DNA of 64,000 nt from Citrus sinensis (Eukaryota; Streptophyta; Magnoliopsida; Sapindales; Rutaceae): positions 37,405,501 through 37,469,500 of the forward strand of contig NC_068558.1 in the NCBI RefSeq assembly GCF_022201045.2, written 5' to 3'. Positions 6,754 through 63,951 of the stretch are shown in pieces. Numbering within the stretch: position 1 is the first letter of the stretch; each line of letters starts with the position of its first letter. The position numbers were made by a program, and so were the translations under genes. The notes under the pieces were generated by a model. The model saw only the letters and a program-made list of their open reading frames with translations, ran no database searches and had not been told where the DNA came from.

Positions 6754-6761
6754 TATAAATA
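6754..6761 (+). promoter_or_regulatory. TATA box of TM4 copy 1
   Basis: TATAAATA 102 bp before the chosen ATG. The same motif sits at 14392 and 18739 before the other two copies, 100-111 bp from their ATGs. This placement is why the upstream in-frame ATG at 6713 was rejected. Confidence 0.75.
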
Positions 6762-6862
6762 AAGCAGCATCATCACATGGCTTAGTCACGGCATTTACAA
6801 AACCAATTAATACCCAATTTTTCACTAAATCAAGCCCACCAAAACCAAAACCCAAACCCTCC

Positions 6863-14399: not shown

Positions 14400-14498
14400 T
14401 AAGAGCATTAGAGCAAGCAGCAACATCATCTTATAACTTACTTAGTCTGGCATTTACAACACAATCAATACCCAGTTTTTCACTAAATCAAGCCCGCC

Positions 14499-18746: not shown

Positions 18747-18849
18747 AAGCAAAATCATCACATGGCTCAGTCACGGCATTTACAAAACCAATTAATACCC
18801 AATTCTTCACTAAATCAACCCCACCAAAACCAAAACCCAAACCCGCCAT

Positions 18850-19284
18850 ATGGACGAAGAAGCCAATGATCAAGTCTTTGAATGGCAGAACGTGATCATG
18901 GCGTTCTGCTTTTCATCAGCCCTCCAGATCGCTATCCTGTCTGCTGAAACTAAAAAAGAACTGTCCCCTTCTTTCTGCGTGCTCTCATTTGCCATCTTCC
19001 TGACCTTCCTTTTTCTCTTTGTTTCTAAACTTATTGCCCACAAGTTTGCTGCTGCATCCCAAGCGCTAGAGAAAGCTGCAATCGTCGTTGCAGCCAGTAC
19101 ATTGGTTTTGGCCACTACAATTCCATATGTCGCGAATTCCGCAAAGCTCAAGTACGCAGCCTGGGCTCTCTACGCCTTCTCCTTGCTTACCATCTTCGTC
19201 TGCAATTTCATCGATGAAATTGTTAACCTCATCAAAAAGATTTCTGACTCCAACAGGCTCTTCTCCTGTCTCCTCCTTTCTTAA
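18850..19284 (+). CDS. TM4 copy 3: four-helix membrane protein with frameshifted tail
   Basis: 144 residues. Residues 1-130 are nearly identical to copy 1 (MDEEANDQVFEW, four hydrophobic segments). After NLIKK the frame differs: a single-base insertion relative to copy 1 near 19242 (AAGATTTCTGACTCC against AAGGTTTTGACCCC) replaces the LTPTASSPVSSFLNKY tail by ISDSNRLFSCLLLS. The original tail remains in another frame up to 19312. All four helices are intact, so a protein could be made, but the conserved Ser-rich C-terminus is lost. May be an early pseudogene. TATA box 111 bp upstream. Confidence 0.65.
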   Translation: MDEEANDQVFEWQNVIMAFCFSSALQIAILSAETKKELSPSFCVLSFAIFLTFLFLFVSKLIAHKFAAASQALEKAAIVVAASTLVLATTIPYVANSAKLKYAAWALYAFSLLTIFVCNFIDEIVNLIKKISDSNRLFSCLLLS

Positions 19285-31464: not shown

Positions 31465-31760
31465 CCAAACGTTCTATTTAATTTTTCAATTTTTTTTTCA
31501 AGAATAAAATATACTGGTAAGCATCTAATCTTGGTCTGGGCTTATTGGCTTGTTTGGATCCAAGACCAAAATCCAGACAAACCCAAAACCCGACCCCGAA
31601 CCGTATTTAAAATATAGTGGCGTGTCGCTATCTCGAGAAAAGAAAAGTGGCATCAAATGAGTGGACATCCACTATAAACAATCTTACACCCTGATCCACT
31701 TTATCACTATTCTTAAAACTCCCAAAATGCCCCCATAAAAACAAAATTTAATTAACAAAG
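31465..31760 (+). promoter_or_regulatory. FRF-A promoter region (source of the array copies)
   Basis: Upstream of exon 1. Contains AATAAGCATCTAATCTTGG, GGGCTTATTGGCTTG (a CCAAT-type reverse motif) and ATCTCGAGAAAAGAAAAGTG. It is kept, with good identity, at 17290, 20140 and in part 8200. Confidence 0.55.
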
Positions 31761-31868
31761 TTCCTTCAAATTTTTTGAATTTACGCCAAATTTCAATTTT
31801 TAGAGCCAATATCTGTAAATTACGAAGAAGATCTGCAACAAGGTTCCTTAATTCTGATTCTTCAATCC

Positions 31869-34800
31869 AGTAAGTCACAGTTCTTTGGACAACTTTAACG
31901 CGTACCCATTAAATTTTGTTTCTTTTTCATTTAACCCCTTGTCGTAGAAATTGCTTTTGCTGAATATGCTTTGTTTGGTGTATTGTTTTAGATGGAAACT
32001 AAGAGACTAGAGTAGAGAGGGTTTGAATTGAAATGGATTCAATTTATATTGAGTTGTTTGGCTTTGTTTTGAGACAAAAGAGTGTACTTTTAGCTGCATA
32101 TGAAATGCTTTGCTGCTTTACAATTAGAGTGATTGAATAAGTTTTTCAAAACGAATTATTTATTTGGGTTTCTATTTTATCTATTTTAACTGTTATTCGA
32201 TATTACGGTGTACTTCTCACTTATGTTGTTTTGTTATTATTATTATTATTATTTTTGAATGTGACTCTAATTATTCATAAAATTGTTTAGAAGGGAGTTT
32301 ATTTTTTATTTTTTTGGCCTTTGATAATTGCCATATCTGTACATCTCTGCTCGCCGTCTAATTGCTGAAAAACCATTTCTGCTTCTTTGGTGCAATTTTA
32401 TGTTTGAAATAGATTTTTATCAAGGTTTTCAACATTTGAAACTTTTTGTATTTTTTCCCCTATTTTTAACTCCTAGCTTTGATTAATAATGCTTTTCAGT
32501 TCTCCGGTAAATGACTTCAGTGGTTTTTACTTCCTTAAAAATAAAAAGAAGAGAAGAAGAGAACCTGCTCTCCAAATTGGGACACACACACACACACAAA
32601 AACTCATGTATATAAGTTTAGTTTTGGAATCTGAATAAAAGTTACAGCTGATGTTATTGTGTGGCAGTGGATTCAGATGAGGGAGCTGGAGCAGTAGAGG
32701 GCTCTGCTGGAAGACAGTTGATTATATTCGAAGGAGATTCAATTAGAGAGCCATGTGAGGGAATGGAATTTGATTCAGAAGAGGCTGCCAAGATATTCTA
32801 TGATGAATATGCACGGAGAGTAGGGTTTGTCATGCGTGTGATGTCTTGTCGTCGTTCAGAAAGAGATGGTAGGATTCTTGCACGTAGACTTGGATGTAAT
32901 AAAGAGGGTTATTGTGTTAGTATCCGAGGGAAATTTGGGCCAGTTCGAAAGCCTAGACCGAGCACAAGAGAAGGTTGTAAGGCAATGATTCATGTAAAGT
33001 TTGATAAATCTGGAAAGTGGGTGATAACTAAATTTGTAAAGGAACACAATCATCCACTTGTGGTGGCGCCGCGTGAAGCTCGTCAGACTATGGTAATGCC
33101 TTTTGTTTATAACTATTAACAGTAATTCATTGTGACGTTGTTATTTTCTTAATTCATTTGATGTATGGCTTAGTGCATCATTCGGTTCTCCAAATTCAGT
33201 AATTTTAGGAGTAATGTATTCATGGGTGTTTGTATCATTATTATTCCGAATTTCTCATGATCTTTGGCTTGTATTATTGAATTCATTGTGATATGCCATT
33301 TACTTTGTACAAAGAATAAAAAAGAAGTTTAATGCATGTAAATGAATAAATGGATAAATTTATGTGTAAATGAATAAATGACAACCTGTTGTAATAAATA
33401 ATGTGTCTTAGAGAGGCATAGGTGCATTTTCTTGGGTCTCATTGGGTTGCGGAAGTTCAAGGGGGTTTCTTTCTTCATTATTTATCAAACTTGGAAAACT
33501 GCTTTCTAATGATGTTTATGTTTTGGGTTCTCTTCCTGTTTTATTCATATTTTGTGGACTGGTGGTACAACTTTTTGTAATTTCCTTTTTTATTAATATG
33601 TTTTATTTTATCTTATTTTAAAAAGAAAAAGAAAAAGAAAAAAGAAAGGGAAAGGCATAGATTCGGTGCAATTGAAAATTTGAGTCTGGTGTGGGATAAT
33701 TAGTATGCTAATGTGAAAATTGCCGGATCAAGCAGAGATTGATTACTATAAGAAGGATGTTAGCCCAAAGTAGATTAATGGTGTGTGAAAAGTATTTGTA
33801 TAAACAATAAAATGAGAAGTCTCTTCAGAATCTGCATTGTCTTATTGAACTAATTGACTGTTTCCAGTTCAGATTGACCAAAATTTTCTTTAGAGGTTGC
33901 TGCTTATCACAGTTATTTATGTTGTGTGGATTTGCCAACTAGTTCATTGGGTGCTGAATGAGCAGCTGATAAATAGATGCTTCTCAATTAGCTGAGAATG
34001 AAGCCTATAGATAAATAAGATAGAATTCCGGCAACGACATTTACTTAAAGCTTGAGTTGTCTACTTCTTTGATAATTTAAGCACATTGTGCACTTTTTAT
34101 AGGTACATAAGTATCTGTACCAGTTGCTGGAGTTGAGTGATGTATTTTCATGTTGAGGGTCTTAGCTAAGACTTCGCTAGTACCAAAACAAGAAGTTGTT
34201 GACAGAGTTTTATTGTGCTGCCATTAGTCATTTAGATGCTGGTTATCAGTTGTTTAGAAGCTAATAGAAGTTATTAGCAGTAATTTGCTGTAATTTTCTA
34301 TTTTTGTTACTAATTTGATGTTTAAATATGTTAGTCTTACTCTTTCTGAGTTGTCTGATTCTTCATGCTGGGGTATTGACAGTCTTTTAAGAAGTAACGT
34401 ATCTATTCAGTGTAGTTTTTGTATTAAATCCTTACTTTCTATTTCTTGGATATTTCTCTCATTTGGCTGGAATTATTGAATCCATTATGATTAAAAAAAA
34501 AATTGATACAAGGATAAAAACCAAAGAATTGGGATGCATATATGCATGGCTAGTCCAGAATCAGTTTGATAAATTTATTTTGCTTAAAAGACAAAACAAA
34601 ACTAGAAGTCTCTTTAAACCTGCTCGGTCTTATTAAATTGAACAACTTTTTTAAACTCAAATTGACTAAAATTTTCTTTTAGAATTGCTGCTTTTCATGG
34701 TTATCTTTGTTGTATGGATTTACTAGGAAGTCGGTAGAGTATTGATTGAACAATAGATATGTAGATATTTCTCTATAATAAAAAATGAAGCCTGCAAAGA

Positions 34801-36487
34801 CAAAAGAAGAATCCAAGAAAATACAGTTAGCATAAGTCTGAATAGTATGTGTAAGTGATAATGTCAACAGTTTTTAAGTTTCTTAAAAAAAAAATAATGT
34901 AAACAGGTTTCCACTCTTTGATAGGTAAGGAGTTTGTAAGCTGTAGGATTTGATTAATAGATTTTTATGTCGAGGTCTTTGCCAAGGTTTCGCTAATACT
35001 GTAATTCACAAGTTGTTTGAAATCTACTGGGCAATGCAGATGCCAGTTCCTAGTCACCAATGTTCTCTTCACTCTAGGAGAAAAAATATTTAATGTTTAA
35101 TCTGTTGTGATTAACTTTTTTTAATTATTTAATTTTTATTTTATTTTGTGGCACATGATGAATATCACATGCAACACATGTCAACATTGTCATGTGAATG
35201 TTGTGTGGACTAAGTCAGGTTTTAGACATTTCTTTGGTAATCACTTTATACAAAACCAATTCACCATGATTTCCTGGAAAATCTTGACGACTCAACAAAT
35301 TTTCACATACCCAGCAACAAAAACGAGAAATTTACGTGACAAAGAGTTGAAACAGTAATGATAGAGCTACAAACACTTTGTACAAATGAGTGTGTACAAA
35401 CTGACGTCGTATGAGGAGCATGAGGAGATTGGTTGGAAAAAACCATTATAGGGCACATATAATTGAAAAAAGTAACCGTTATTACTTTTTATACTTTTTA
35501 GCCAATCTCTTCATGCCACATCAATTTGTAAACAATTTTGTACAAAATGGTTTGTAGCTTTATCATTTTTGGAGCTGAAGATATTGAAACTAGCAACGAT
35601 TTAGTCATCTCAAGAAGTGAAAACTCATCATAAGGTAAGGGTGAGTGGCAGTATTTGTGTTCAAAAAATGGGACTTTAGTGTAGTAATTTTTTTTTTTTG
35701 TTTAATAGTCCAAGAAAATAATTTGATATAGACAACCATAAGGTTAACAATGAGCAAAATAAAAATTGTGGTACGTCTTAGTGTCTGGTAGATAGAGATT
35801 GTTTCCAGTTACCTGGTTTTACTTCAGTGCAGTTAACTGTCAGCAGAAGAAGTAACAGCAAAGGGTTTATCTGTCACTTATTTTGCCCACAGGTCTGCAT
35901 CTGATACAATCATCAAACGTTGGGGGTCCATGTGTCATTTACCTTATTGTTTATTTGTTATGTAGATAACTTTTGATATATAAGCATTTTTTCCTGTTCT
36001 CTTAATAGAATGACAACCTCATCTGCATTCGAGAAGCCCTGACTTCACTATTTGTTTTCTCCACCTCTTTTGTTTATTAGTTGTCTTTTCTAGTCTTTGC
36101 AGACACTCATGAACATACAAATACAGTGCATTTACTTTCCCATTGATGGAATCAAGTCATCAATTGGTCATGCATAGTGTTTTCTTTTACATGCATCTAT
36201 GTGCTTTTCTCCAAACAAACGGTGCATAGCTTTTTACTTGTCAAATTTGGTTTTAATTGTTTGTTTTGCTTAAACTTTTATAGGATGAAAAAGATAAGAA
36301 GATTCAGGAATTGACAGTAGAGCTTCGAAATAAGAAACGGCTTTGTGCACTGTATCAAGAACAGCTAACAACTTTTATGAAGGTTGTGGAAGTGCATAGT
36401 GACCACCTATCAAAGAAAGTTCAGAATGTAATCAACAATCTCAAAGAATTTGAATCTATAGAGAAGGAGCTTTCGCGCAACAGATAG
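31869..36487 (+). CDS. FRF-A: short FAR1-related protein
   Basis: Spliced gene. Exon 1 is 5' UTR ending CAATCCA at 31869; intron 31870-32667; exon 2 32668-33092; intron 33093-36283; exon 3 36284-36487. The ATG is formed across the first intron (A|TG GAT), giving CCATGG context; exon 2 has no other in-frame ATG before the domain. Protein 209 residues. FAR1 zinc-finger domain at about 35-131 (GMEFDSEEAAKIFYDEYARR; C77, C104, H127, H129 as likely Zn ligands); C-terminal coiled coil (DEKDKKIQELTVELRNKK) at 143-209. No transposase core or SWIM domain, so it is an FRF-type factor, which in Arabidopsis are thought to modulate FHY3/FAR1 light signalling by binding the same DNA site. Nuclear role inferred. 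Confidence 0.88.
35344..35580. mobile_element. MITE in FRF-A intron 2
   Basis: Element about 35353-35571. Left arm AGTAATGATAGAGCTACAAAC and right arm (reverse-complemented) AAAAATGATAAAGCTACAAAC, followed in both by TTTGTACAAA. Imperfect 9-bp TSD, GAGTTGAAA against GAGCTGAAG (7 of 9). Same family as the better-kept MITE at 58172-58373. Older by its divergence. Confidence 0.7.
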
Positions 36488-37579
36488 CCATGAACTCCTG
36501 AAGTGGCTACTCCAGCGCCACTTAAAGTTGGTAGTACATTTTTTTTTTCCCTTGTACCATTTCAGGTCTACATATATATATTTTTTACGAAGTTGTGTCT
36601 AGTAGAGATTTAGGTGTTAGTAGGTTACTCTAGATGATCTGATATAAAAATGTACAATATGGTAGGCAGCTTTGAAGATTTGCTTTGGCAATTGTTGCAT
36701 AAGCACCCATTTATTTTCTTTTACCATTAGAATGTTCCTCCCTGACCATATTCTGAAGTGTTGTAACAAAAGGCAGTTGGTGCCGTGTAGGCAGCTGCTT
36801 CAGCTGGACAGGATCTTGCGTAACGAATGACTTTGTAATCATTTCTGGTAATGTTAGCTAAGCCAAGAGCTCCATTGCAATTGTTGTTTTAGCATATGTG
36901 GTTCTTCTCTCTTTGTTGTTCCCTTAAATTAGTTTTTGCGAAATTCCATCGTTAACTACTTCCTTTTCATAGACTCTGTTACGGATGTGTTCTGATAGCG
37001 TCTTCTGACCTAAGGGCATGTTTCTGGTTGTAGAAGAAATAGAGTTTCAACGCCATGTTGATCCAAAATGCATGTTCAAGTTTCAGCATAAGGTTGGTGT
37101 TTTGGCTTTATGAGAGTTTATTTCAAGAGTGCAGAGAAAGGAAGGAATTTGATAAACTGCTTTGATTTAAAGTATTATGTTACATGATAGTGGTATAAAT
37201 GTATAAGACAAAAAATTCGTAGACATGAAAATTAAGAACGGTAATCAAGTAATTTGAGACGTAAATGCAAAACGTGTTACTTGAACATCAAACACCAAAT
37301 GGGTAATATGCGGAACTTCAAACATGAAAGCTGCGTTATGATGATTAACACGGGAACTACGGCCATTCTCCAATGTGCTCCCTCTGGCTTGTCCTGATGT
37401 TATGGAGCTAACCTCTAATCAGCATCAGCTATCCTAAGATTTAATCTCAATAGATAATTAGACTCTCCTTGTTCTAGAAATAAATATCTAAATTTCTTTC
37501 AGAATTCTATTAATGAATTTCGTCTAATTTGATATAAACAAGAGTGTTATTATTATACTAATGTCCATCAAGATGATGT
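36488..37579. other. FRF-A 3' UTR and spacer
   Basis: No gene seen. The first few hundred bases are presumably 3' UTR. Beyond about 37000 no structure was noticed. Confidence 0.5.
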
Positions 37580-37966
37580 ACAATGATTAGGGATGGCAAT
37601 TGGGAGTAGGGATGGCAATAGGGAGGGGAGGGGAGGGGACCAATCTCCCCATACTCATCTCCGATATTTTGCATATGTCCCCGTCTCCGTCAGAATTACT
37701 TGAGAGAATCCCCATCCCCTCCCCGAATAATAACAGGGGATCCTCGAGGGTCCCCGGTCCACGAATAACTAATAGTCTAATACATTATTTTTATTTTTGA
37801 TTTTAAATTAATCATATTAAAATAAAAAATTCAGATAAAAATAAAATTCAAAATATATCTTACATTAATATTGATCCATTGCAAAGTCACATTCAAAATA
37901 TAAATTATTAAAATAATTATAAAACAATGAAAATGATATAAGTAAAGTAACTTATAAGTGCAAATC

Positions 37967-38239
37967 TTAATAACTGTATAATATAATCACAATGTAAAAT
38001 AAACTCATACTGTTATTGTAAGCTCGTAACCAACTTTGACAGCACATTAAGGCCTCCAATGTGCTTGGATGAAGTTTGTTACGGTGTGGGCTCACAACTC
38101 TACCACCGGTGCTAAAAGCTGATTCAGAAGCAACTGTTGTAATTGGAATTGCCAAAATATCTCTAGCAATTCGAGCTAATGTAGGATACCTATTAGCATT
38201 TAATAATATAAATATTTTGATATTTATTATTTTTAACAA
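37967..38239 (-). pseudogene. hAT transposase dimerisation-domain remnant, copy 1
   Basis: Reads NANRYPTLARIARDILAIPI, TTVASESAFSTGGRVVSPHR and NKLHPSTLEALMCCQSWL, the hallmark hATC region (ILAIPxTTVASESAFSTGGRV). Nothing N-terminal to it is kept, so it is a relic of a larger transposase. Inside the non-autonomous hAT element at 37588-39607. Confidence 0.85.
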
Positions 38240-39140
38240 TATTTATAATTTTGTTATTTATTTATTAGTAATTTTAAAAATAAAATTAAAATTAAAAATT
38301 AAAATGGGGAAATGGGTAGGGGATGGGGATTCCACCTCATCCCCGTCCCCTCCCTGAATAAAAAATTGGGTAAAAAATTTTCCCCGTCCCCTCCTCGAAT
38401 AAAAAATTGGGTATAAAATTATCCCCGTACCCTCCCCGAATGGGGAAAATCCCCGAGGGTACCCGTCCCCGTGGGGATTTTTGCCATCCCTAATTGGGAG
38501 GGGAGGGGAGGGGACCAATCTCCCCATACCCATCCCCGATGTTTTGCGTATGTCCCCGTCCCCTCCCCGTCCCCGTCAGAATTGCTTGAGAGAATCCTCA
38601 TCCCGTCCCGAATAATAACAGGGGGTCCCCGAAGGTCCCCGGTCCCCAAATAACTAATAGTCTAATACATTTTTTTATTTTCGATTTTAAATTAATCATA
38701 TTAAAATAAAAAATTCAGATAAAAATAAAGTTCAAAATATATTTTACATTAATATTGATCCATTACAAAGTCACATTCAAAATATAAATTATTAAAATAA
38801 TTATCTTTGTCAATGACTCAATCTTCATAATCCTACAATAAAAAGAAAAAAAATTATTTTTATATCGGTAATAAAATAAATAAAATAAATGTAGATACTT
38901 AATTAATATTTTTAATAAAACTATTTACCTCCTGCTCGTCCTGCTCGTCCTACTCGTCCTGCTCGTCCTGCTCGTCCTGTTCTTCCTCGAGAAATGTGGC
39001 AAATTGAGAGATAGCCTCAGATTTCAAACCTAAAACAATGAAAATGATATAAGTAAAGTAACTTATAAGTGCAAATATTAATAACTGTATAATATAATTA
39101 CAATGTAAAATAAACTCATACTGCTATTGTAAGCTCGTAA

Positions 39141-39350
39141 CTAACTTTGACAGCACATTAAGGCCTCCAATGTGCTTGGATGAAGTTTGTTATGGTGTGG
39201 GTTCACAACTCTACCACCGGTGGTAAAAGCTAATTCAGAAGCAACTGTTGTAATTGGAATTGCCAAAATATCTCTAACAATTCGATCTAATGTAGGATAC
39301 CTATTAGCATTTAATAATATAAATATTTTGATATTTATTATTTTTAACAA
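39141..39350 (-). pseudogene. hAT transposase dimerisation-domain remnant, copy 2
   Basis: Near copy of the remnant at 37967-38239 (ANRYPTLDRIVRDILAIPIT, TVASELAFTTGGRVVNPHHN). It has several substitutions in the SESAFST motif and a stop after CCQS. The divergence between the two gives a relative age for the internal duplication. Confidence 0.85.
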
Positions 39351-39615
39351 TATTTATAATTTTGTTATTTATTTATTAATTAGTAATTTTAAAAATAAAA
39401 ATAAAATTAAAAATTCAAATGGGGAAATGGGTAGGGGATGGGGATTCCACCTCATCCCCGTCCCCTCCCCGAATAAAAAATTAGGTAAAAAATTTTTCCC
39501 GACCCCTCCCCGAATAAAAAATTGAGTATAAAATTATCCCCATACCCTCACTGAATAGGAAAAATCTCCGAGGGTACCCGTCCCCATGGAGATTTTTACT
39601 ATCCCTAACAATGAT

Positions 39616-40676
39616 GTATATTCCCATCTAAATACACGTATATCTCAATCGAAAATATTTTGAATATCCATTTTTAAAAGAGTCCCTTTGCTCTTAAATC
39701 AATATTTAACGTTTTGGGCAATTCCTTTTTCTCTTTCATGATTTGTTATTGATTAGAGGGGCCATAATTCTTTTCACTACTAAACCTCCCAAGAAGATAT
39801 GATTATGAAGTATGAATTCTCTCATCTTCCAGCCATGGCCTTCAACTCATGTGAAAAGGACGCAGTTTTAATCAAAGGAGGGCAATGGGGTAAAATTGTT
39901 GCTATTATTATTAAAAAAATATATATGTATATTTGAGAGTCCGTGATAACGTGGTGAGGGCGCCCTCACAGTAAAAACATCACCACCTTCTTCATCATCC
40001 TCATTTAAGTACTGAAAACAGCGAGTTAGCAGTTAAGTCACCTCTCTCAATTCAATCATCACAATCCGCAGTGTCTCGCTCTATTTATAATAAAGGTAAG
40101 CAAAAATTTCTTTTTTTTTTGGTTAAAAAAATTGAATTGTCATGAAATACTTGTTATTTTGGATACCGCATGATCTTTGTTGTCCATCTGCAGTTTCTGC
40201 TATTTTTATTTTTTTTTCATTGAAAAAAAAAAAAAGCTCCCATTTCATTCTATGCACAGGGGTTACCATTAAACCCTAGGCTCTATATTGGAAATGGGCG
40301 GCAAGAAGAATCAAAATTTTATCTTAAAAACCTGTAAAATGACTTGAATTGGTTAACTCTTTTAGTAATTAGGGTTTAGGTTTTTAATTATCTGCAGTTT
40401 CCCATTATTGATTAATATATATATTTTTTAATTCAGGTTTTAGACATTAGTGTGACAAAACATCTTTCTAGAGCCAGTGATTTTCATTTATATGAAGTTA
40501 ACTAGTTTTAGCTGTTATTTACATATCTATTTGAGCTAAGTTTCTTTCATTAATTTGAGAGATGCAGATGGTTGCCTAGTTCATTAATGTTGACATATTA
40601 GCATGCTACCCATTTGAGAATTGAATCAGGTTTTTGAAGTTCATTATTGTTGTTCATTGGATTCAGAAGTGGCTGA
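39616..40676 (+). other. 5' region and non-coding exon 1 of the type I membrane protein gene
   Basis: Exon 1 probably ends at 40095 (TAATAAAG|GTAAGC); intron 40096-40676 ends in TTCAG. 39990-40095 is a plausible 5' UTR. No other gene in the spacer. Confidence 0.5.
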
Positions 40677-40698
40677 GTAACGGGCGTTCCTCTGGTCT

Positions 40699-41847
40699 AT
40701 GATGATTCATTTGCGAGCTCAAAAGTTGCTGATTCTGCTGTATATACTGGTTTTTTTCAGCAGCAGCCTAACTTTGAGTCAAGGAGACATGTCAGTAACT
40801 CAGTAAATAAAAATTGCAGAATGTCATCGTCTTGAGTAGCTGGTGCTTTAACTGGATGGTTGATTAGATTACTTTCTTTCTGTTTTTATAGGTTTGAAGG
40901 AAAGGTTCTCAAGGTAGGGGAGGAGCTATGGAAGGAAACTTTACCATTACATATGGGTTCTCGATTGTACCAGCTCCAAGGGCTGAAATCTTTCAATTGG
41001 TACGAAGTGAAGATCTCATATCCAGCTTCTGTATGTAATTTTCTATGTGTTTGCGTTGTTGCTTGTTGCAGCATTCTCTAGCTGAATGCTTATTTACTCG
41101 CCTTTTTGTTTTGTGGGGTGTGAATTACAGGTACCTGCTAGCTTTACGTTACAATTGAAGAAAGGCAATTTAGACATAGGGCTGAACAAGAACAGAAGGT
41201 TACTCAATACTGAAAAGTTGATTTTCAAGACTGAGAATCTTGATGTTCTTAATGATCAGGTTCGAAAATATCCCTAAACTTTTATATATAATGTTTCGTA
41301 TTTGTTGAGTTCAAGTTTGGTGATCTGCACAGGGTGGAATGCATGTTTTAGTTACTGTGGAGCCTGAGGGAGTTGTTGCAATGCCGAACGTAGAGGAGAG
41401 AGAGTTCATCTTTAATATTGGTAATTTGGGTTCATATAATCTTTCAGATCATCAATTCATATAAATTCCATTACTCTTGCACTTGAAAATATTGGTTTCA
41501 AGGTTCCACAGTGGAGGCAGTTTGTGGCTACCTAATTATTTGTGAAATGTACAGGTTCTGTATTTTCTCAATCATTTCCGCCTGTCTGAGTTCTTTTCTT
41601 CTATATGTAATGTTCATTATGGGATTCTTTCAGCAGCATATTACTTGTAACTGATCAATCTTGTTGGTCCTTAACAGCTTGTGATGAACTATTGTTGGGC
41701 ATCCCGTACAAAGCTTGGTGGGTTGTTGTCTTTGTGTTGTTATGTTTGGGATTGGCGTTGATCACCCCTTATTTTCTTCCATCTTATTTGCTGCCGAAGA
41801 ATGGGGGCTTACCCTCGGATCTACGGAATGTTTCAAAGGAATCTTGA
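40699..41847 (+). CDS. Type I single-pass membrane protein, unknown function
   Basis: Five coding exons, all with GT-AG ends and consistent phase: 40699-40790, 40892-41030, 41131-41259, 41333-41420, 41678-41847. The product is 205 residues. Residues 1-28 are a clear signal peptide (MMIHLRAQKLLILLYILVFF). A lumenal or extracellular domain follows (about 30-160), with a likely beta-rich fold (YEVKISYPASVPASFTLQLK; VLVTVEPEGVVAMPN). Residues 163-183 are a transmembrane helix (WWVVVFVLLCLGLALITPYF), leaving a short C-terminal cytosolic tail (PKNGGLPSDLRNVSKES). I do not recognise the family. The single-exon ORF calls at 40860 and 41086 are parts of this gene. Start chosen because it supplies the signal peptide and joins in frame; an M is rebuilt at the first junction. 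Confidence 0.85.
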
Positions 41848-42890
41848 TATTTAATTTAGAAGTTAAACTTTGCTGCTGATGTTGTTGAGGCTATGGTGCT
41901 TTTTTGACTTGGTTTCTACTGTACAAAAATTCTTTGGTTGTTTCAATTCAATAGAATCAAATGTCTTTTAACCATTTTACAATTTCTTAGGACCTGATTC
42001 TTGATATTTGGGAATTTGAAATGGAAATGTTCAGAAGTTATTTGAAGATCTCCATTTCTGATTCTTTAATCGCATTTTTCCTTTTTCAGAAATTTATGAT
42101 TTTTCTTTTTGTTGGGAAATCAAAATTTAAGTATAATATTTAATTATGTAACAATAAATTGATGTTATCTATTAACACCTCTTGTATCTACAGCCGCGAA
42201 CTCAAGTTTGTTATACTTAAAAGCTGTTTAGATAGTCCTATAGAAGTTTAATTTTCTTTCAAATGTTTAAAAGTAAAATATGTTGCCCTATTTCGATGGG
42301 TAAAAGAATCCGCAACTCAAATTGTGTGGGTTATTTGGGTTAAGAAAACTTTAGCCACAAATGACAAAACGCGGCTCAAATTTATAAAAGTATTTTTATA
42401 CATAAAAGAATCTCACATGTTGAAAAAAAAAATGGATTCTAAATACTATACTCTTCACCTTTAAAACTTGTTCTACTTTGTGCTTAATGATTATTATTCC
42501 ACAATATATTTATATATATATAAAATAATTTTTTGGTCCGAGATCATAAAGTGTGTGGAAAATATCTGGTAAAATTTTAAAATCGTGAAATTTTAAAAAT
42601 TTAAAATTTAAAGCGCTTAAACTGTATCGTTTATGTATTTTTTTTTGGATATTTCCACATTTTATAAAATTCTGAATTAAAACTATATAATGTACAGAGA
42701 CCATTAAACGTAATGTACAACTCTTAATTAGTCATTCTTTTCATAGATTTACACTAATAAAATGACCAAATTTTTAAAAAAAAAAAACAAAGGAATCTAA
42801 CGGCTCATATCGACCTTGAAGTTTTGTACAATAGCTGAAAAGTGGGACCCATCTGTTAATGTATCACAGCCTTTTGCTGTTTTTTTTTTT
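41848..42890. other. Intergenic spacer
   Basis: 3' UTR of the preceding gene to about 42000, then AT-rich sequence. No further gene or repeat seen. Confidence 0.5.
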
Positions 42891-43037
42891 TTTGGAAAAA
42901 TTCCTTTCCGTTGCTTGTTTCTTCTTGAACGGCTGCGAGCCTGCGACTAACCACCACGGGTAACAGCATCAGAGGCGACCCACGAAGATTAATTTCACAA
43001 ATAATTTTTTTTTCTTTTCACGTAAAAGAAAGCAACA

Positions 43038-45880
43038 AGTAAGTCCCTTTACTATTCAATTGTTGTTTTTTTTTCAATTATTGAATGTATATTTTTGTTA
43101 TTTTTACCGTCGCAAAAATCGACAAACTGTTTGGTTCCCCGAAGGATTAGGGAAAATAAGAGAAAATTTAAAAAAATGATTTTTTTTTTGTTTATTTTCT
43201 GTTTAGTTGAGCTTAGTAGTTCCTTTTTTTGTTTGGATCTACGGAATCTGTTTATTTATTTTATGTAGGATCGGGATTTAGTTTTATGCTATCAATTTTT
43301 TAGGGCTTAGAACAATAATGATAATAATTCACTATTTTAAGTACTCATACTTCCATATAGGCCATGCCTTGATCAATGTAAAAAGTTTTCATGAATTTCT
43401 GTAATTTACTAGCAAGGGCACTGTGTCAAAGAGAATTCGGATAGCAGTAGCTATTTAGCTTAGGCATATTATTGATCCTATTAGGATAGGATTGCGATTT
43501 GATGACATTGGAAGCTTTTTTTCAGGTGTGAAGCTTTTTTTCAAGTTGTTATATGTTGTTTTTAGCTCATATTATTGCTTTTCAGTGGATTTGGAAGCCC
43601 CTGCAGAAGAAACGCCTGCTGAAGAGAAAACTGTGATAACAGAAAGTCCTACAGGAGGTGAATCTGATGTTTGTGAAATTGACACTAGACGCGAACCATA
43701 TGAGGGTATGGTGTTTGAGTCGGAAGATGCTGCCAAAATATTCTATGATGAGTATGCCAGACGCGCAGGATTTTCGACACGAATTATTTCATCGCGTAAG
43801 TCAGAGCGTGATGGATCGATCATCTCTCGCCATCTTGCATGTAATAAAGAGGGATTTAATGCTAACCGTCGGAAGTCCGGACGGGTTCAGATTCGAAAGC
43901 GAGAGAGCATACGGGAAGGTTGCAGGGCAATGATATTGGTGAAGAGAGAGAAGCCAGGGAGGTGGGTTGTGACGAAATTTGAGAAGGAGCATAATCACCT
44001 ACTATTAAGTTCTGGAAAGGATGGGCCATCTCCAGTAAGTACTCTTCATGTTCATTAAACCTGTTAATTTTATTAAACTACCAATCTCTCTGCTACACTC
44101 ATGAATTTTGCACATCAAGAAATTGAGATCGATGGTTACTTTTTATGCCATAGGACATCCCTTTTGTGAAAAAATGTGGAAAGAATGGAAAGCCAAAAAT
44201 TTCCAAAAGTTTTAAGTGGTGATCCTCCTTTTAATATATTGAGGGTCTCTTAAACCCATAGGTTGTTCTTGAAGACAGGGAAAACTACCATCTAGCCTTA
44301 GTCAATTTAGAGGCAGTTCACAAAAGCACTTAAGAGTATGTGAGAACACCATTCCATTTTGGAAACTGCAAGAGACCTTCCTTTTTACCCTTGGAGTATT
44401 TTATTAGATGCTGTTTATTTTATCCATATGAATTGCAATTTTGATGACTATGTTGACTTGTTATATTAATTTAAAAGTATTTGAAAGGTTGATGGTGATC
44501 CAGTGGATCAATTATGACCATAGGTGGAGAATAAAACTTGAGCTTGACTGGGCTGTTAAAGAAAATTTATCTTCCAATCAATCTAGTAAACTTTGAAGGA
44601 GTTTCTCTTAATTGAAGGGGATTGATGCAATCTAAGTTATTAATGTTACTTTCAGTAATTTCTCAACCGGGTCTGGGTGAATTGTAATTTGCTTAGTGTA
44701 CTTGATGGGAAGTAGTCCTATCTTCACATGGGTAAATAGAATCAGGGAGCTTCTCATCTGTACCTTCTGGGTGGAATGCGGTCCCAGGCCTGGCTACATT
44801 AAAACCTTATACAACATATGAAGTTGTTTAGGGTTATGACTGTGAATTTCAAAATGTAATTAGTTACTTCTTCTCAATTATAGAGAAATTGTAAGATATT
44901 TATACCTTTTCAGTGTTTGCAAAATCCTCAACTGCCACAGACCCAGATAGCTAGTGAAATTTTTTAACCTTGTGAATAGCCTTTTAAGACTGTTCTTAAA
45001 GTGAACCAGGTAATGTACTAATGGACATTTCTCAACATTAGCAAAATCATGCCATATTTGAATTGTCAGACTTTGGGTGAAGGGAAAATAAGTATTCATT
45101 TATTAGTTACTTTATTACCGGGGTAATTATAGCTGGCTCTTTTAGTTTAGATGAATATCTGAAATTGAAAATTTACACATATGTTGTACCAAGGACTGCC
45201 TTACTGTATGGTACCGTTGTACTGATACATATTGTATACTAAATTTTGAGTTCTTTAAATCCTGAAGAATCTTCAGCCAGCTTCTGCTATGTGAAGCAAT
45301 TGGTTGTTTTGGTGAAACTTTCCCTGTAGATGTTAGGAAAATGGTATAGCCTCTGTGATATTTAACTCCAATGCGAGACTTGTTCTGATGCATTTTCTGA
45401 TTAGGATGATTTATGGACATGCATTTCTTAACACCATGCAGCTCCTGGTGTGACAAAAGCAAATGTTTGATGATTAGATCTTGTGCTGAACCCTGCAATT
45501 TTGAAATGCCCATTACAGGTTAATAATCAAAATCAATGAATAAGTAGCATTTCATGTGGATTCGATGTGTAGCGTTATCATATTTTTGGCTTCTATCTAT
45601 ATTCCAATGCCTAACCAAAAAAACTTTAGAACACTCTGTACATTTGGATCTTCACAACTAAATCATCTGTATTTTGATGTCTTAGGACGAGAAAGATAGA
45701 AAAATTCGAGAGCTATCTATGGAGTTGCATCGTGCAAATCAAAAGTTGGAAGCATGCCAAGAACAGCTGCAAATAGTTATGTCGTATATCGAGGAACACG
45801 CTAAGTGTCTGTCGAAAACAGTTGAAGAGGCAGTTAAGGATATCCAAAAGGTCGAATCTGGAAAACAAAAGGAACCCTAG
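43038..45880 (+). CDS. FRF-B: short FAR1-related protein
   Basis: Exon 1 is 5' UTR (about 42890-43038) ending AACAA; intron 43039-43585; exon 2 43586-44034; intron 44035-45685; exon 3 45686-45880. As in FRF-A the start codon is split (A|TG GAT TTG), giving AACAATGG, a good plant start context. Protein 214 residues: acidic N-terminus (1-38), FAR1 domain about 40-140 (GMVFESEDAAKIFYDEYARR; likely ligands C86, C113, H136, H138), coiled-coil exon DEKDRKIRELSMELHRANQK. The ORF from 43492 that runs through the intron is not the protein start. Closest relative in the window is FRF-A. Confidence 0.88.
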
Positions 45881-46900: not shown

Positions 46901-47621
46901 GAAAAAAATCCAAAAGGCCTTTTTTATTATTGTTTTATTTTTTTGGTTTTATGGCAAATCAGTAACAGCGCCGCTACGTCACTTTCATTTCTGGGCCTTT
47001 GGCTCTTGTGTCCCCGATGCGAAGTGCAGAAACAGTTTAGAAAACACACAAGAATTCAGAAACAATTCCAGTAACATACAATAAAATAGGTAAAGCTCTG
47101 CTCAAATATCTGAAAAAGATCCAGCGTTTTTCTGGGTTTTAAATTTTCATTTTTATCCTTTTCTGCTGTTGTTTTAGACAGCACATTTCAGCTTCAGGTG
47201 CATTCTGGCACGAGCATATAATTTAGTTCAATTAATCTGTTTTGTTTTTTCTGTATGATTTTGCTTTCTGGGTTGTTTTCTTTTTCTGTTCATTGAAATG
47301 TTTGTGGTGTTGAATTTCATAAATTAAGCTCGCTTAAGTGAATTCTGAGAAAAATAAAACTTGTAAAATTTGATACTTCATCGTTAGGTAATCCAGTTAT
47401 GTGTAGTAATTAAAAGAGCTTCCATATTAAAGTCATGTACATAAATTTGACATAATCTAACAAACATTGCCAATGGTGATTGTTGATTAATGATTAATAA
47501 TTATATCTTAAGGGTAATCACAAATTTGAATTTTTGTCATCTACTGTATGCCTGCAGTTTTGTTGTGTGATCATGTCTAAGTTTATGTCTTGATATTTTT
47601 TAATGTTGTGATAGGGTTGTG

Positions 47622-50600
47622 ATGGGAAGCACCTCTGGTGAACAATTTGATTTGGGCAGAAATTATAGACAATGGTTAGCTGAAACTTTTGATGGTCATG
47701 AAACAGGAGATGATGAATTATCGGATCATTTTAATGGAAGTGATAATTTCACCCAACCATCTGATGGGATGTTTCCATTAACTTCTGAATCTACAGAGCC
47801 ATATATTGGTATGGAGTTTGACTCAGCAGAGGATGCAAGGGAATTTTACGAGATGTATGGAAGGCGTGTGGGGTTTACGATACGAAATAATCGTACACGT
47901 CGGTCTCTAAAAGATAATTCAATAATTGGTCGAGAATATGTTTGCTCTAAAGAGGGATTTCGTACAGGAAAGTGCACAAATAGAGGTAGCAGAGTTCTCC
48001 TGCCACGGCCTGCCACCAGGGAGGGGTGCAATGCCATGCTGAGAATAGCTGCAAAGGATGGAGGGAAGTGGGTTATCTATGGTTTTGTAAAAGAACACAA
48101 TCACGAGCTGAATCCAAGTAAAATACCGCCTCGACGATCTCATAGAATTGCATTCTCTGAGGTATGGTAGGAGATTGTGTTTTTATGACATGATGCTATT
48201 TGAGTGCTTATTATCTTAATGGTTTCTTTAGAATTTGGAAATATGAGAAAAAGGATATGCTTGTTCAATTGACATGACCGAAGAACCACATGTGGTTTAA
48301 TGGAACTTAAAGAACTAAAGTTGAGTTATAGATTCAATGACCGTCATGCATCAGTGCCATAGATGGAAACCTTTTTAAAATGTATATTTGGGAGACTTTT
48401 ATTGGCAAGCAACAAAAAGAGCAAGAGGAGGACCTGAAAGTTACTTAGCTAATTTAGCTAGGATTTGAGGTTTGAAGGACATACATTTTCAGCTTGATTA
48501 CAGAAACCATTTCCATCTTTGTGTTTACAGCTTCAGAGAGATTGGTGTCTACTAAAAATCATGTATGACTAGAAGCTGTCAGAACTTTGGGTGCAGGAGC
48601 CCAAAAAATATACCAGTGATGAGCCATGAGTGATCAAGAGTGATATGTATAGAACCTTTTATTAGCACAATTGAGTGATCAAGAGTCATATGTATAGAAC
48701 CTGGTCTTAGCACAATTTAGGAGAGGGGGTGGGCATACGTAATTTGATGATTTAACCAGAAATTATCCTAAGGAATAACATGATTCAGGAACTTTCCACT
48801 AGCATGTAGGAACAAGAAGAAAATGCACTGATATGGCAAGTAAATTATGACAGGAGTTTTGATATAGCTAAACCCCAAATGGTGAAGAAAAAAGTTATTT
48901 GCATTGAGCTGAGTTTATTTTAGAATCGAAGTCTTGAGAATAATAAATTGACATGTTTGTGTTTTATGGTTGGAATAAGTGAATATGGAACAGAAAATTT
49001 GAACAATAAAGCACGCTAAATCTCTTGACAAGATTAAGTTCATTAATAGATGGGTCCCTCTTCCATTATTGTAATGGGTTGGTTGGTTTTATTAAGAGTT
49101 ATGGGTGCAAGTTATATGTTTTGTACTTTATATCCAAGCAGGTTGCTCCAAAATAACTTGTACTTAAATGCAGCATTAGCTGTAGCAATGGCATCGAAGA
49201 ACAGCTAGTACTTGAATTAACCATAAATTAAGCCATTGTTTTCTTGAATTGCTTTAAGCCAGTTTAGTTTAGTTTCTTCATATGCAAGTTCTGTGGCCTA
49301 TTTTACTCTTTGCCGACACTTACCAAGCAGTTTAACATGAATAAATAGACATCTTTTTACCTCTATAAACTGGTGCAAAGCTGTTACAGCTGTATAATTG
49401 ATGTTTGATAATGCGAGTGAATGTTTTGAATTGAGGTACAAGGAAAGAGTTTCATGAATCACAAGATTGACTTGGGTAAGCCGTATTATAAGGTCAATTA
49501 GGAATTTGTGTGACTGGAGTTATTCAATGTCTATGAACATCTTTTGCTATCAGTGTAGAATATATGAGGTTTGATAAGAAGAGATTCTGGTTGTCCGCTT
49601 TGCATCATTGTGGTGTTTCAGCTGCTTTTTTGTTTTTGTATTTGGTCAGAAAATCACAATGTCACATTTGAAAAGTGCAATTATTGCAATTTCAAGTGCA
49701 CAAGCACCTCTAGGAGCTTGCTACGGAAATGGAGGGTGGAGTAGCTGTGCCTAGTTTCACCCTAAAACATGTCATATTTTTGTTTATTTTATGGTTAAAT
49801 TTCTAACCACCTCTCTTGTAAAATGACAATCTTCAAAATACTCCAAACTATTGGAAACCTCAAGTTGCCCTGATTTTTGTTCAAAAGATAAGGGAAAAAT
49901 GGGGGCAGAAAATTTTTTTATCTTAAAAAAAATGGGGGTAAGTTGAGGTTTACAATAGTTTGGGGGGTAGTTGAAGAATAATCCTTATTTTATTTTATTC
50001 TCTTTCACCATTCAATCTAATATTTGGAAAATTTCTTAACTATGTATTATTATCCAAGCGGAAAGCTGTTTTTTTGGGACTTTATTATCATGTTCTTGTC
50101 TTATTCAAGTGCTGGGTTGCTTTGGGGTTTAAGATTGTACACTCTACTTTGTACAACTTTTCATATACATTTTGATCGATAGAAATTCCCCGCCTCACCA
50201 TTTTGGATGCATAGAGACCTGGTTGGATGACCAGAATAGTTCTCTCACTATGGGCCTTTTGTCTAAGATTTCGCCCATTTCCCCAAAAATAGTTGGAAGT
50301 AATCATGTTTTGAGAACAAACCTTGCGAGTTATGCCCACATTTGGCTATGAGCCAACAAGGCGACATGGGCTTACATTTTCTTACTTCAACATTCTTATA
50401 ACGCTTCTATTTTAACGATTGCATGCAGGATGTGAAGGATCTTAAAATTCGAGAACTATCCACGGAGCTACATCATGAAAAAAAGAAATCTGCAGCTTAT
50501 CAAGAACAACTATGCATGGTCTTGAAATTTATTGAGGAACACACTCAGCGGATGTCTTTGAAAGTTCAAGTAGTGACTAATAATATGCAAGAACTGGAAT

Positions 50601-51720: not shown

Positions 51721-52262
51721 TACTCACTACGCACGAGTGACGAGCCCAGACTGTAACATAAAACAGTTCAAATTTCAGAAGCTCAAAATCAGGTCAGCTA
51801 AGCTGCAGCTGCAGCTGCTTTTATTCACTTCATATCTTTAATTTCAGCTTCTGCTTCAGTTTTTTTTTTTAATATTTCTTTTGGTGGGGGGGTCGAATTT
51901 ATTTATTATTTATTTATCTTTTCACTATCGGTGAACTAGGTTTCTTGTGAATTTTGTAAAGGAAATGAAAAGATGATGTTAAGTTAATACCAAGTGCATT
52001 TTTGGAATTATGTTCAAAACAAAACCCTGCAAAATATTTCATGTCGTTGTTTGGGAATTGTTGCATCAGTGTGAATGTAACTGCAATGTGGGATAAATTA
52101 GGGAGTGTGTGTTTATTAAATTTGGATATTATTGGATTATCAATATTTAGCACTTATACAGATGCATGATGGAAATGTTAGATTCTATGACCACAAAATG
52201 TACAATGATTAGAGGAACTGGCAATAATTTTTGGATGTCGTTCTATCTGTAGGAACATCATA

Positions 52263-53683
52263 ATGGCCTGTTCTGCTGGACATGAATTTATAGATGGTGA
52301 AGGCTGTTCGGATAACGATACATTGGAAAGCTTTGATGAACATGATACCACAGAAGATGGGCTGTTGCAGAATTACAATTCGCACGATGTTATAAATGAT
52401 GAATTGAATGTGGTGATCCCTTCGATGGAAGGATTCACGGCTGACAGCTCAGAAAGTTTAGAACCATGCATGGGAATGACTTTTCCATCACTAGAAGATG
52501 CGAGGGATTTCTATTACGAATACGCCAAGCGTACAGGTTTCACCATACGAACAAACCGAATCCGTCACTCACTAAAGAATATGGCTATTATTGGCCGGGA
52601 CTTTGTTTGTTCTAGGGAAGGTTTTCGTGCTGCGAAGCATGCGCTTAGAAAAGACAGGGTTCTTCCTCCAAGACCAGTTACCAGAGAAGGCTGCAAAGCG
52701 ATGATAAGGCTGGCAGCAAGGGATGGAGGTAAATGGGCTGTTACCAAATTTGTCCGAGAGCACAACCACAAATTGCTGACTCATTGTAAATTCCCTGGGG
52801 AGCTTCCAATTGTCAATATACTCAGTGAGGTAAGTCTGGGGTTACTTCTTGATAAAATGGTAATATGGATCAATTTGCATTGTTTGTTTATAAATATCTA
52901 GGTGTTACACCTCTTATCTTTTAGTACTATCTTATTTTTTTAATTTTTTTTTTTAAAGCTAACTTTTATTATTTAATGGAACTGTTAAGGTGTCTGAGTG
53001 CAAAATTTGAATTGAACATCATTATTAATCATAAACTTATTAGAAGATCCTCTGGAGAAGTTTAGACCATTGCTAACAGAGCTCATTCTGTCTTTGGATC
53101 TTGAGATGACCTAGCTTTAGATTTATATGGATTGCATACAAAGTTTGATTGATTTTTAAGCAATACCCTTTCTTATTGGCTGGAAAGTGGTTAATGGTCA
53201 TATGGGTTCCACATTCCTAAACAGTCTGAATACAGTAAGTGTGCTTACTCAATTTGTGGTAAGAAATCCCTACTACAAAGCATGTACCTCTACCTTTTCA
53301 ATGCATGCTTCTGCCATTAACATAGCACTTCTAACATAGGTCTTATGACAAAATTTACATACCACATGGCAATTGGCTGAGAAAGAGATTCATGCATATC
53401 TTGAAAGTCTTTATTGTAGGAATTGTTAATGAAAGTTCTATTTACTCAGTTTTATTATCATTTGAATTTAAAAATGTTTGTTTTCATGAAAATGCAGGAA
53501 GAAAAGGACAAGAAAATACGGGATCTCTACAATGAACTTCAGCGTGAAAGAGAGCGATCTGCAGCAATTCAACAACAACTACGGTTGATTCTCAAAGATC
53601 TAGAAGAGCATGCTGAGATCATGTCTATAAGAGTTGAAGACATTGTTAACAGCTTGAGAGAAATTGAACTTGATGAGTTGTAG
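52263..53683 (+). CDS. FRF-D: short FAR1-related protein
   Basis: 5' UTR exon probably ends at 51792 (AAAATCAG|GTCAGC). Exon 2 starts 52253, ATG at 52263 to 52829; intron 52830-53497; exon 3 53498-53683. Protein 250 residues. Acidic N-terminus (1-66, rich in Asp/Glu), FAR1 domain about 70-170 (GMTFPSLEDARDFYYEYAKR; likely ligands C116, C144, H167, H169), coiled coil (EEKDKKIRDLYNELQRERER) in exon 3. Phase-0 junction at the same point as in FRF-A, B and C. The gene is the one nearest to the CML gene. Confidence 0.92.
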
Positions 53684-62151: not shown

Positions 62152-63951
62152 CTAATTTTCAGCGCTACTCAAAATTCCTTTTAAGCATAGCAAATGCGTT
62201 ATTATCTCGGGTAAGTCACAAAATTTAAATTTATAATTAATATATTCTAAGTCGCACAGCAGGTCCATCAAGGCACCCTCAACATCAAAAGTTATTTCTA
62301 ATGCTAAGTAATCACGAGCCATTCTTGCGAGGGTCGGATAGAATGGAGCATTGCCACGCCACCAAGCTAGTATGTTAAACTGTTCGACTGCTGGTACTTT
62401 AAGCTCTTTCATATACAGATCAAGTTCTGATTTTGGTGATGAAGTGGCGTCTAGCATTCGATATGACTTTGAACTGCTGGTGTCGGTTGCTGCATATGCA
62501 TCATAAACGTCTCTAAAATCTTTATTCACTTTCTCAATGTATATATCAGCATCACTGCCATAAATCTCCTTGTAATGAAGTCGCACACCATCCATTTTGA
62601 GCCGTGGGTCAAGAATTACTGCAATGACTCTAACCGAATAATTTTTGCTAAAAAATAGATCAATAGCTTCCTTCATCACTTTTTGGCAAAAAAGACAATC
62701 TTCAATTGTGTGGTTGCATCGATCCTTTAATATCTTATGCACGTACGGGAGATCTACAATTATTGGAATATCACCTTTAGTCCAAAAGAAGCTGATATCA
62801 CGATACAAGAATTTCAAATGCTCGAACGTGGCAGTTACCTCATCCCATTTTTGTTTACTTAAATTAATTGACCTAAACTCGGAATCGAATTGCTCCAGCG
62901 CTGAAAATACTTCTTTCACGCCCACTGCAGCCTCAAAATACCAATAAAAACCCAAGAAACGAGTACCAGAAGGACCATCTTTGAGTATGGAAATCTTAAT
63001 TTCTACGAGACTGTCCAACTGAATTAGTTTATCTGATGTTGACTGGTTATGCACATAAGCAGCACACTCCTTTAAGGACCGTATCCCATCCCTCACGTAA
63101 TCTTCGGAGAGCAATACGGAATCAACATACTGCCATAAATAATACGTATCAAGTAGGCACCCGGCAAAAGGAAGTGAACGTCGTTGACTAAACCAACTTT
63201 CCATCTTTCCAATTTCGTTATCCAGACCGTCTGTTGTATCAATTGGAAGAGAAAGAAGTAGAGAGCATATATTCGTGTCGATCTTCCAATCCATACATGA
63301 TTGTTTCACAGCTTCTGTCAAATTCTTGATATGATCATGAGGACACTGCCAAAAACTAATAATCTTGCTCTGCCGTTCCCAACTATCATCAATATAGTTT
63401 ACTTCCAAGAGACATCCATCATCCAAATCGGAGTCGCAGTAAGCAAGTCGTAAAGTGAAACGACAAGAGAGGTTATTAAGAAATTGGCAAAGTTTTTCCT
63501 TCTCTTCTTGGTAGAGTTGGAGTATTTCATCATTTCTCGAGTTTAACACCCATGGATCCAAATCCGGCCAATCCTCGCATTCCTCATCACCAGTATGTCC
63601 TTCTGGGTCGAACCAGTGCTTGATCAGACCACGAAGAGATTTTTCTTTAATAAGACTGGCTAACTCTTTTGTTTTGATTGATGCGGACAGTGATTGATGT
63701 TGATCATCCCTATCACGACCATCAGATCCACTTTTTCTCTTATTGTTATTAGCTCGGCATCTCTGTAAATGATTTTTGAGATGTGTGGTTCCTTTCTTGC
63801 TTGAACCGTCAAACGTCTTCTTACAATGTTTGCATTCGGCCTTCACTTTTCCATCTGCCTCTATGTGCTTTATCATCTCCTCCCAAACCGCTGAAGGCTT
63901 TTTCCTTTTCTTAATAGCTGATGGTGATGAGCTTCCTACATTCGGATCTCC
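62152..63951 (-). CDS. BED zinc-finger hAT transposase-like protein (5' end outside window)
   Basis: One long open exon of 599 codons after an acceptor at 63952-63953 (TATGTAG|GGAGATCCG); the first coding exon lies beyond the window, or translation starts at the ATG at 63876. Residues near the start hold a nuclear-signal-like KKRKK and a BED finger (ECKHCKKTF...HLKNHLQRC). The middle matches the hAT-like RNase-H fold region (WDEVTATFEHLKFLYRDISF, VILDPRLKMDGVRLHYKEIY). The end begins as hATC (NILAWWRGNAPFYPTLARMA, RDYLALEIT) but lacks SESAFSTGGRV and instead reads FDVEGALMDLLCDLEY and an unrelated tail. It is either a domesticated gene (DAYSLEEPER/RICESLEEPER-like class) or a young non-functional transposase. 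No stops in 1.8 kb. Confidence 0.8.
   Translation of the reverse strand, partial: GDPNVGSSSPSAIKKRKKPSAVWEEMIKHIEADGKVKAECKHCKKTFDGSSKKGTTHLKNHLQRCRANNNKRKSGSDGRDRDDQHQSLSASIKTKELASLIKEKSLRGLIKHWFDPEGHTGDEECEDWPDLDPWVLNSRNDEILQLYQEEKEKLCQFLNNLSCRFTLRLAYCDSDLDDGCLLEVNYIDDSWERQSKIISFWQCPHDHIKNLTEAVKQSCMDWKIDTNICSLLLSLPIDTTDGLDNEIGKMESWFSQRRSLPFAGCLLDTYYLWQYVDSVLLSEDYVRDGIRSLKECAAYVHNQSTSDKLIQLDSLVEIKISILKDGPSGTRFLGFYWYFEAAVGVKEVFSALEQFDSEFRSINLSKQKWDEVTATFEHLKFLYRDISFFWTKGDIPIIVDLPYVHKILKDRCNHTIEDCLFCQKVMKEAIDLFFSKNYSVRVIAVILDPRLKMDGVRLHYKEIYGSDADIYIEKVNKDFRDVYDAYAATDTSSSKSYRMLDATSSPKSELDLYMKELKVPAVEQFNILAWWRGNAPFYPTLARMARDYLALEITFDVEGALMDLLCDLEYINYKFKFCDLPEIITHLLCLKGILSSAEN

Follow-up and report, generated by a model that had tools for sequence, protein, structure and literature searches.

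FRF-A and FRF-B, two FRF genes in a 64,000-nucleotide stretch of the Citrus sinensis genome (hereafter the window; positions 37,405,501-37,469,500 of contig NC_068558.1, which is contig 3 of an 11-contig, 300 Mb assembly), appear to carry an intron inside the start codon. Judging from sequence, we are confident that both would be three-exon FRF genes in which this intron was inherited and its splicing builds the initiator AUG. The split start is very probably real, inherited and of a known type: it is a new example of an already known gene structure, here common to a gene clade. Two further FRF genes in the window, FRF-C and FRF-D, have whole start codons and serve for comparison (Table 1).

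In FRF-A and FRF-B, an exon of the 5' untranslated region (UTR) ends in A directly before the donor, and the next exon begins with TG directly after the acceptor (a slash marks splice sites here and below). The donor side reads ...CAATCCA/GTAAGTCA in FRF-A (exon end 31869) and ...AGCAACAA/GTAAGTCC in FRF-B (43038), and the acceptor side reads ...GTGTGGCAG/TGGATTCAG (exon start 32668) and ...GCTTTTCAG/TGGATTTGG (43586). A first-pass annotation of the window had proposed that at these positions GTAAGT follows an exon 1 whose last base is A, that the FAR1 exon starts TGGAT after CAG, and that splicing creates an ATG. The donor sides agree with it base for base, the acceptor sides are as it described, and in-silico splicing yields CCATGGAT in FRF-A (context CAATCC-ATG-GAT) and ACAATGGAT in FRF-B (GCAACA-ATG-GAT, with ACA-AUG-G a good initiation context). 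The joined exons read MDSDEGAGAVEG... and MDLEAPAEETPA..., respectively, on into the FAR1 domain, and the predicted proteins begin MDSDEGAG... and MDLEAPAE.... Upstream of the acceptor, the exon frame of FRF-B contains no ATG, and the FRF-A open frame starts only at 32652, which implies an in-frame stop just 5' of the acceptor.

Other parts of the annotation fared less evenly. Its view that exon 1 is free of ATGs holds for the 142 nt (FRF-A) and 179 nt (FRF-B) before the donor and fails beyond them: the nearest upstream ATGs, at 31727 and 42859, open frames of 3 and 34 codons that differ from the spliced frame and close before the donor. It had also placed the first in-frame ATG inside the FAR1 domain; the first whole in-frame ATGs lie 11 residues before the Pfam match in both genes, so that a protein started there would retain the whole match. 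Both the sequence and the return of the junction in relatives support its proposal that full-length translation should need the intron 1 splice.

Exon 2 matches Pfam PF03101 (FAR1) above the cut-off in both genes (E 2.5e-29 for FRF-A and 1.8e-30 for FRF-B), and this was the only Pfam match in exon 2, the exon scanned. On the question of a MULE transposase core or SWIM domain, the frame of each gene ends after a short tail in exon 3, which was read by eye. This coiled-coil-like last exon aligns among FRF-A, FRF-B, FRF-C and FRF-D. A sequence search with FRF-A, up to E 10, found no solved FAR1 structure. A TATAAA-like site at 31673 is no more than a hint of the FRF-A transcription start.

Taken on the window's own sequence, the case for a split start in the two genes is fair. 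A scan upstream ranked the modelled donor highest among donors that give any in-frame start, in FRF-A and in FRF-B, and an in-frame start results from 8 of the 20 donors scoring at least 3 in FRF-A and from 8 of 16 in FRF-B. The donor and acceptor score matrices are unfitted, and we give score ranks little weight for or against any model. As a control for chance, we counted TG directly after pyrimidine-rich YAG sites: 13 of 264 plus-strand sites and 17 of 277 minus-strand sites have it. The weightier control is recurrence in relatives: chance as an explanation of the split ATG is made unlikely by its return at four more loci.

These loci came from a genome-wide FAR1 search that gave 341 first-look candidates and 150 scored matches, 36 of which we examined (FRF-A to FRF-D and 32 further FAR1 loci); one truncated copy was inspected besides. 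In searches with FRF-A and with another clade member, E, listing 150 scored places each, everything ranking above H, a relative with a whole ATG, was already in the set, and the truncated copy (C2:22480638) is the sole extra locus taken from them. On the 36 loci we defined a clade of six split genes, FRF-A, FRF-B, E, F, G and C6a, which leaves 30 FAR1 loci for comparison. E, F, G and C6a are independent of the first-pass annotation.

All six intact clade members have the junction, a CMA/GTRAG donor and a CAG/TGGA acceptor joined to A/TGGA, across first introns of 547-1057 nt. The spliced contexts are AATCCATGGATT (FRF-A), GCAACAATGGATT (FRF-B), TTTTCAATGGATT (E), CCATCAATGGATG (F), CATGCAATGGAAT (G) and CACCCAATGGATT (C6a). 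The motif pair is found near six of six clade members versus one of the 30 other FAR1 loci (S3), where it is out of reading frame. In FRF-A, FRF-B, E, F and G, an in-frame YAG/TGGA runs into the FAR1 exon. C6a has no junction in its own FAR1 frame; its FAR1 match is preceded, at a distance of 455 nt, by TTGCTGCAG/TGGATTCTAGG, and the donor, ATCACCCAA/GTGAGT, lies 1057 nt before that acceptor. We counted a start as split where the donor follows an A, the acceptor precedes TG, the join is in frame and exon 1 has no other in-frame ATG before an in-frame stop, a pattern present in the predicted exons of FRF-A, FRF-B, E, F and C6a.

The sequence around the junction is also consistent with coding. 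From the acceptor on, the predicted frame of the N-terminal tail contains no stop in any of the six genes, and stops interrupt at least one of the other frames in all six and both of them in five, including FRF-A. An EP..GM.F motif before FAR1, around the exonic Met, is conserved in frame and extends 5' of the first exonic ATG of FRF-A and FRF-B; coding should therefore begin further 5'. All six split genes have A at donor position -1, a minority state among donors. One scan of prokaryote contigs with patterns from FRF-A to FRF-D found no relative.

Several observations weigh against an inherited split start. The donor motif was broadened to GTRAG once F and C6a had been seen, which makes the contrast between the clade and other loci partly post hoc. 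Between its split exon and FAR1, the C6a model requires an additional putative intron, and twelve choices of splice sites for it preserve the frame. The predicted exon 1 of G contains a whole ATG, in frame and 24 nt upstream; G falls outside our definition of a split start and has the least clear 5' end of the six. In F, two whole ATGs follow in frame, 12 and 13 residues after the split one. No split junction was seen in the truncated seventh relative (C2:22480638-22480877), which is 51% identical to FRF-A over residues 4-84, has lost the later part of FAR1 and is probably a decayed copy. The acceptor half alone can occur by coincidence, as in C3b, which has an in-frame CAG/TGGA and no donor motif in the 1700 nt before its FAR1 match. 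In-frame YAG/TG 3' of a whole ATG occurs in five of the 30 non-clade loci (C3b, S5, S7, S13 and S15), as would be expected of coincidence in coding sequence. Splice scores are mixed as well: start-less upstream donors outscore the split donor in FRF-A, E, F and G, three of them in FRF-A (with exon ends at 31516, at 32506 and about 2.16 kb upstream). The FRF-B split donor tops one donor scan and is narrowly outscored in another by a donor at 43525, just 60 nt from the acceptor, and two acceptors, 43526 and 43304, outscore 43586. Finally, T at -3 gives the FRF-A split start a weaker context, and tree support for the split clade (88/76) falls below the tool's star.

Intron 1 could instead be an ordinary 5' UTR intron, with TGGA a coincidence and the GMEF or GMVF Met the true start of a shorter FAR1 protein. 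Such a protein is conceivable in both genes, where that Met stands shortly before the Pfam match with G at -3 and +4, and the N-tails hardly align between genes. Against this, the A/TGGA junction and the frame open from the acceptor are common to all six clade members, EP is conserved in frame before the Met, the same Met/Leu is internal in FRF-C, FRF-D and H, and E and C6a carry Q at that position; we think a downstream start very unlikely. An alternative first exon or a promoter inside the intron seems to us highly improbable. Donors giving whole in-frame ATGs do exist (FRF-A 30720, 32424, 32522 and 32607; FRF-B 42272, 42299 and 42329), as do segments open from 32400 or 32511 that would feed FRF-A exon 2. 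FRF-A intron 1 also contains TATATAA at 32609-32615, some 55 nt short of exon 2, which could be an internal promoter whose product would start at GMEF. All of these donors, however, score below the split donor, and an unspliced FRF-A transcript starting near 32645 would present out-of-frame ATGs first, at 32651, 32677 and 32753.

The split might also act as a regulated gate, with retention of intron 1 or alternative 3' splicing switching these FRFs off at translation. Intron 1 contains 12 ATGs in FRF-A and 10 in FRF-B, none of them leading in frame and without a stop into the gene, and the higher-scoring FRF-B acceptor at 43526 (TTTTTTTCAG/GTGTG), 60 nt 5' of the modelled one, would if used lose the ATG and leave the frame open. 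The first-pass annotation had similarly suggested that retention would silence the full protein. This fits as far as the full-length protein goes, but is not special to FRF-A and FRF-B: the first introns of FRF-C and FRF-D contain 10 and 15 ATGs, so retention should harm these genes too, and such ATG loads come with long 5' UTR introns generally. E, moreover, has an in-frame intronic ATG 9 codons upstream that is open into the gene. A conserved regulatory element in intron 1 was rejected, as blastn among the six introns, each with 250 nt upstream, gave no mutual match at E 0.01, even between the sisters FRF-A and G. We give a gate in these genes very little credence, and see only a slim chance of a conserved translation gate that controls production of possible FHY3/FAR1-type competitors and has been kept since before the duplication described below. 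We do not think that the split itself adds control.

Under the reading we prefer, an intron inherited within the start codon, FRF-A and FRF-B would each consist of a 5' UTR exon, a FAR1 DNA-binding exon and a coiled-coil-like exon. Exon 1 would supply the A and exon 2 the TGGA, and removal of intron 1, like that of any 5' UTR intron, would form the AUG. The sequence at six loci, the tree and the paralogous block are shown directly; from them we infer the transcription start, splicing in vivo, the ancestral state and its age, and initiation at the joined AUG by ribosomes scanning from the cap, which would give proteins beginning MD. On a transcript retaining the intron, ribosomes would meet the intronic AUGs first, 12 in FRF-A or 10 in FRF-B. 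The ancestor of the six-gene clade most likely had this arrangement already. It would have survived several duplications and may persist because neither a start codon nor an intron position is easily lost, and regulation need not be involved.

The tree groups FRF-C, FRF-D and H, all with whole ATGs, with support of 100/98, and groups the six split genes separately. Five split genes versus FRF-C, FRF-D and H require one change on the tree (100/98). The annotation had located the whole ATGs of FRF-C and FRF-D correctly, 7 and 10 nt past their acceptors, and had proposed that the intron had slid or the ATG had moved between the two pairs; a recent slide was not supported, because the pairs sit in separate clades and the comparison is between those clades. 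Sister relationships link FRF-A with G on contig 2 (99/89), FRF-D with H on contig 2 (98/65), and C6a with E (100/99). FAR1 domains within the split clade are 44-66% identical, and the N-tails barely align.

A paralogous block on contig 2 (22,541,000-22,573,300) contains F and G (split), H (whole ATG) and then an EF-hand gene that is an 81% identical copy of the one adjoining FRF-D. F and G are head to head, with predicted exon-1 ends at 22543888 and 22544893, about 1.0 kb apart, and may share a two-way promoter. Contigs 2 and 3 thus seem to share a duplicated block with both split and whole FRF genes, and from the EF-hand copies and the sisterhoods of FRF-A with G and FRF-D with H, the split state should be older than this duplication. 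The ancient eudicot triplication is a candidate origin of the block, and we know of no later triplication in citrus. If the block does stem from that event, we infer that the split would be more than 100 million years old. S1 (C8:88041), a full-length FRS gene, has TAG directly abutting a whole ATGGAT; if this candidate acceptor is used, S1 would be one base from the split state, which makes a one-base intron slide possible.

Table 1. Features of the FRF genes in the window (window positions) and the four further split genes (contig:position).
Feature	Position	Strand	Description
FRF-A 5' UTR exon	31700..31869	+	Ends ...CAATCCA, final A is start codon base 1; 31700 arbitrary
FRF-A intron 1	31870..32667	+	798 nt, GTAAGT...CAG, splits A/TG; 12 ATGs inside
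FRF-A exon 2	32668..33092	+	Begins TGGATTCAG; acidic N-tail and FAR1 domain
FRF-A first whole in-frame ATG	32763..32765	+	GMEF Met, context GGA-ATG-G; 11 residues before Pfam FAR1 match
FRF-A exon 3	36284..36487	+	Coiled-coil-like tail DEKDKKIQEL..., stop TAG; boundaries by eye
FRF-B 5' UTR exon	42960..43038	+	Ends ...AGCAACAA; 42960 arbitrary
FRF-B intron 1	43039..43585	+	547 nt, splits A/TG; 10 ATGs inside
FRF-B exon 2	43586..44034	+	Begins TGGATTTGG; N-tail and FAR1 domain
FRF-B first whole in-frame ATG	43708..43710	+	GMVF Met, context GGT-ATG-G; 11 residues before Pfam FAR1 match
FRF-B exon 3	45686..45880	+	DEKDRKIREL..., stop TAG; boundaries by eye
FRF-C exon 2	47615..48161	+	Comparison gene; whole ATG 47622, 7 nt past acceptor
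FRF-D exon 2	52253..52829	+	Comparison gene; whole ATG 52263, 10 nt past acceptor
Split gene E	C3:37386432		
Split gene F	C2:22542767	-	
Split gene G	C2:22545867		
Split gene C6a	C6:2730989	-	

Other features of the window lie around these genes. Between FRF-A and FRF-B, at 40080-41870, is a gene (MEGNFTITYGFS...) with, by eye, a 5' UTR intron, a whole ATG and a C-terminal membrane helix; Pfam gave no match to its protein as spliced by hand, the first 108 residues of which match solely their own locus in the genome at E 0.001. Two near copies in tandem at 37617-39608 form a repeat of about 0.9-1.1 kb (88-97% by segment) with GGGGA-rich ends, a stretch of which resembles what we take to be a hAT transposase fragment. 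On the minus strand, a stop-to-stop frame of 599 amino acids at 62152-63951 contains BED zinc finger, hAT RNase-H-like and hAT dimerisation domains and is a hAT transposase or a domesticated relative. Three frames at 6701-7324, 14487-14957 and 18814-19284 are by eye similar and membrane-protein-like, with FEWQNVIM... near the start, and no Pfam match was found in the two that were scanned.

If the split start is real, a gene finder that accepts only whole ATGs would misplace the start of this clade, at the internal GMEF Met or in a false upstream exon, and FRF protein annotations may lose the acidic N-tail. The passage on spliced start codons in the description of the gene finder Tiberius states that it is unable to predict them (PMC11645249). 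That passage names a class of gene structure and gives no gene list; the FRF genes would be a concrete clade that such a tool would mis-start. The six paralogs also offer material on how split starts persist and on one-base slides (the TAG abutting ATGGAT in S1 versus A...CAG/TGGAT). They change nothing in what is known of translation.

Our literature searches, whose coverage lacks many journals, turned up no report of split start codons in this gene family, a result that does not prove absence. The FRF passages of PMC6000157 describe FRF as subgroup 6 of the FRS-FRF family, with a FAR1 DNA-binding domain and without the transposase core or SWIM, and do not mention split start codons; the passages at hand from a barley FRF paper (PMC10847358) give intron numbers only and do not mention the start codon. 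FRF-A and FRF-B resemble subgroup 6 in their FAR1 domain, and the coiled-coil-like exon 3 is our own reading of the sequence. The 5' UTR introns of Arabidopsis are described as enriched 1-40 nt before the ATG (PMC1482700), with about 75% of those in A. thaliana less than 65 bp from it (PMC3729371), and those of Arabidopsis and moss as longer than coding introns (PMC1482700; PMC3729371). In the parts of these sources considered here such introns precede the ATG, as in FRF-C and FRF-D, whereas the intron of the split clade sits inside it. The closest parallel is in Yarrowia lipolytica, for which passages in two papers count 47 genes with a one-base first coding exon, the A of the initiator (PMC2911113), and 42 introns with the 5' splice site after one of the start codon's three bases (A, T or G; PMC13309789, 2026). 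FRF-A and FRF-B are alike in having an intron inside the start codon. They differ in that Yarrowia is a yeast for which those passages describe no shared gene clade, and in which the class of 42 is not confined to A/TG, whereas here six paralogous plant genes have introns of 0.5-1 kb at the same point of the start codon.

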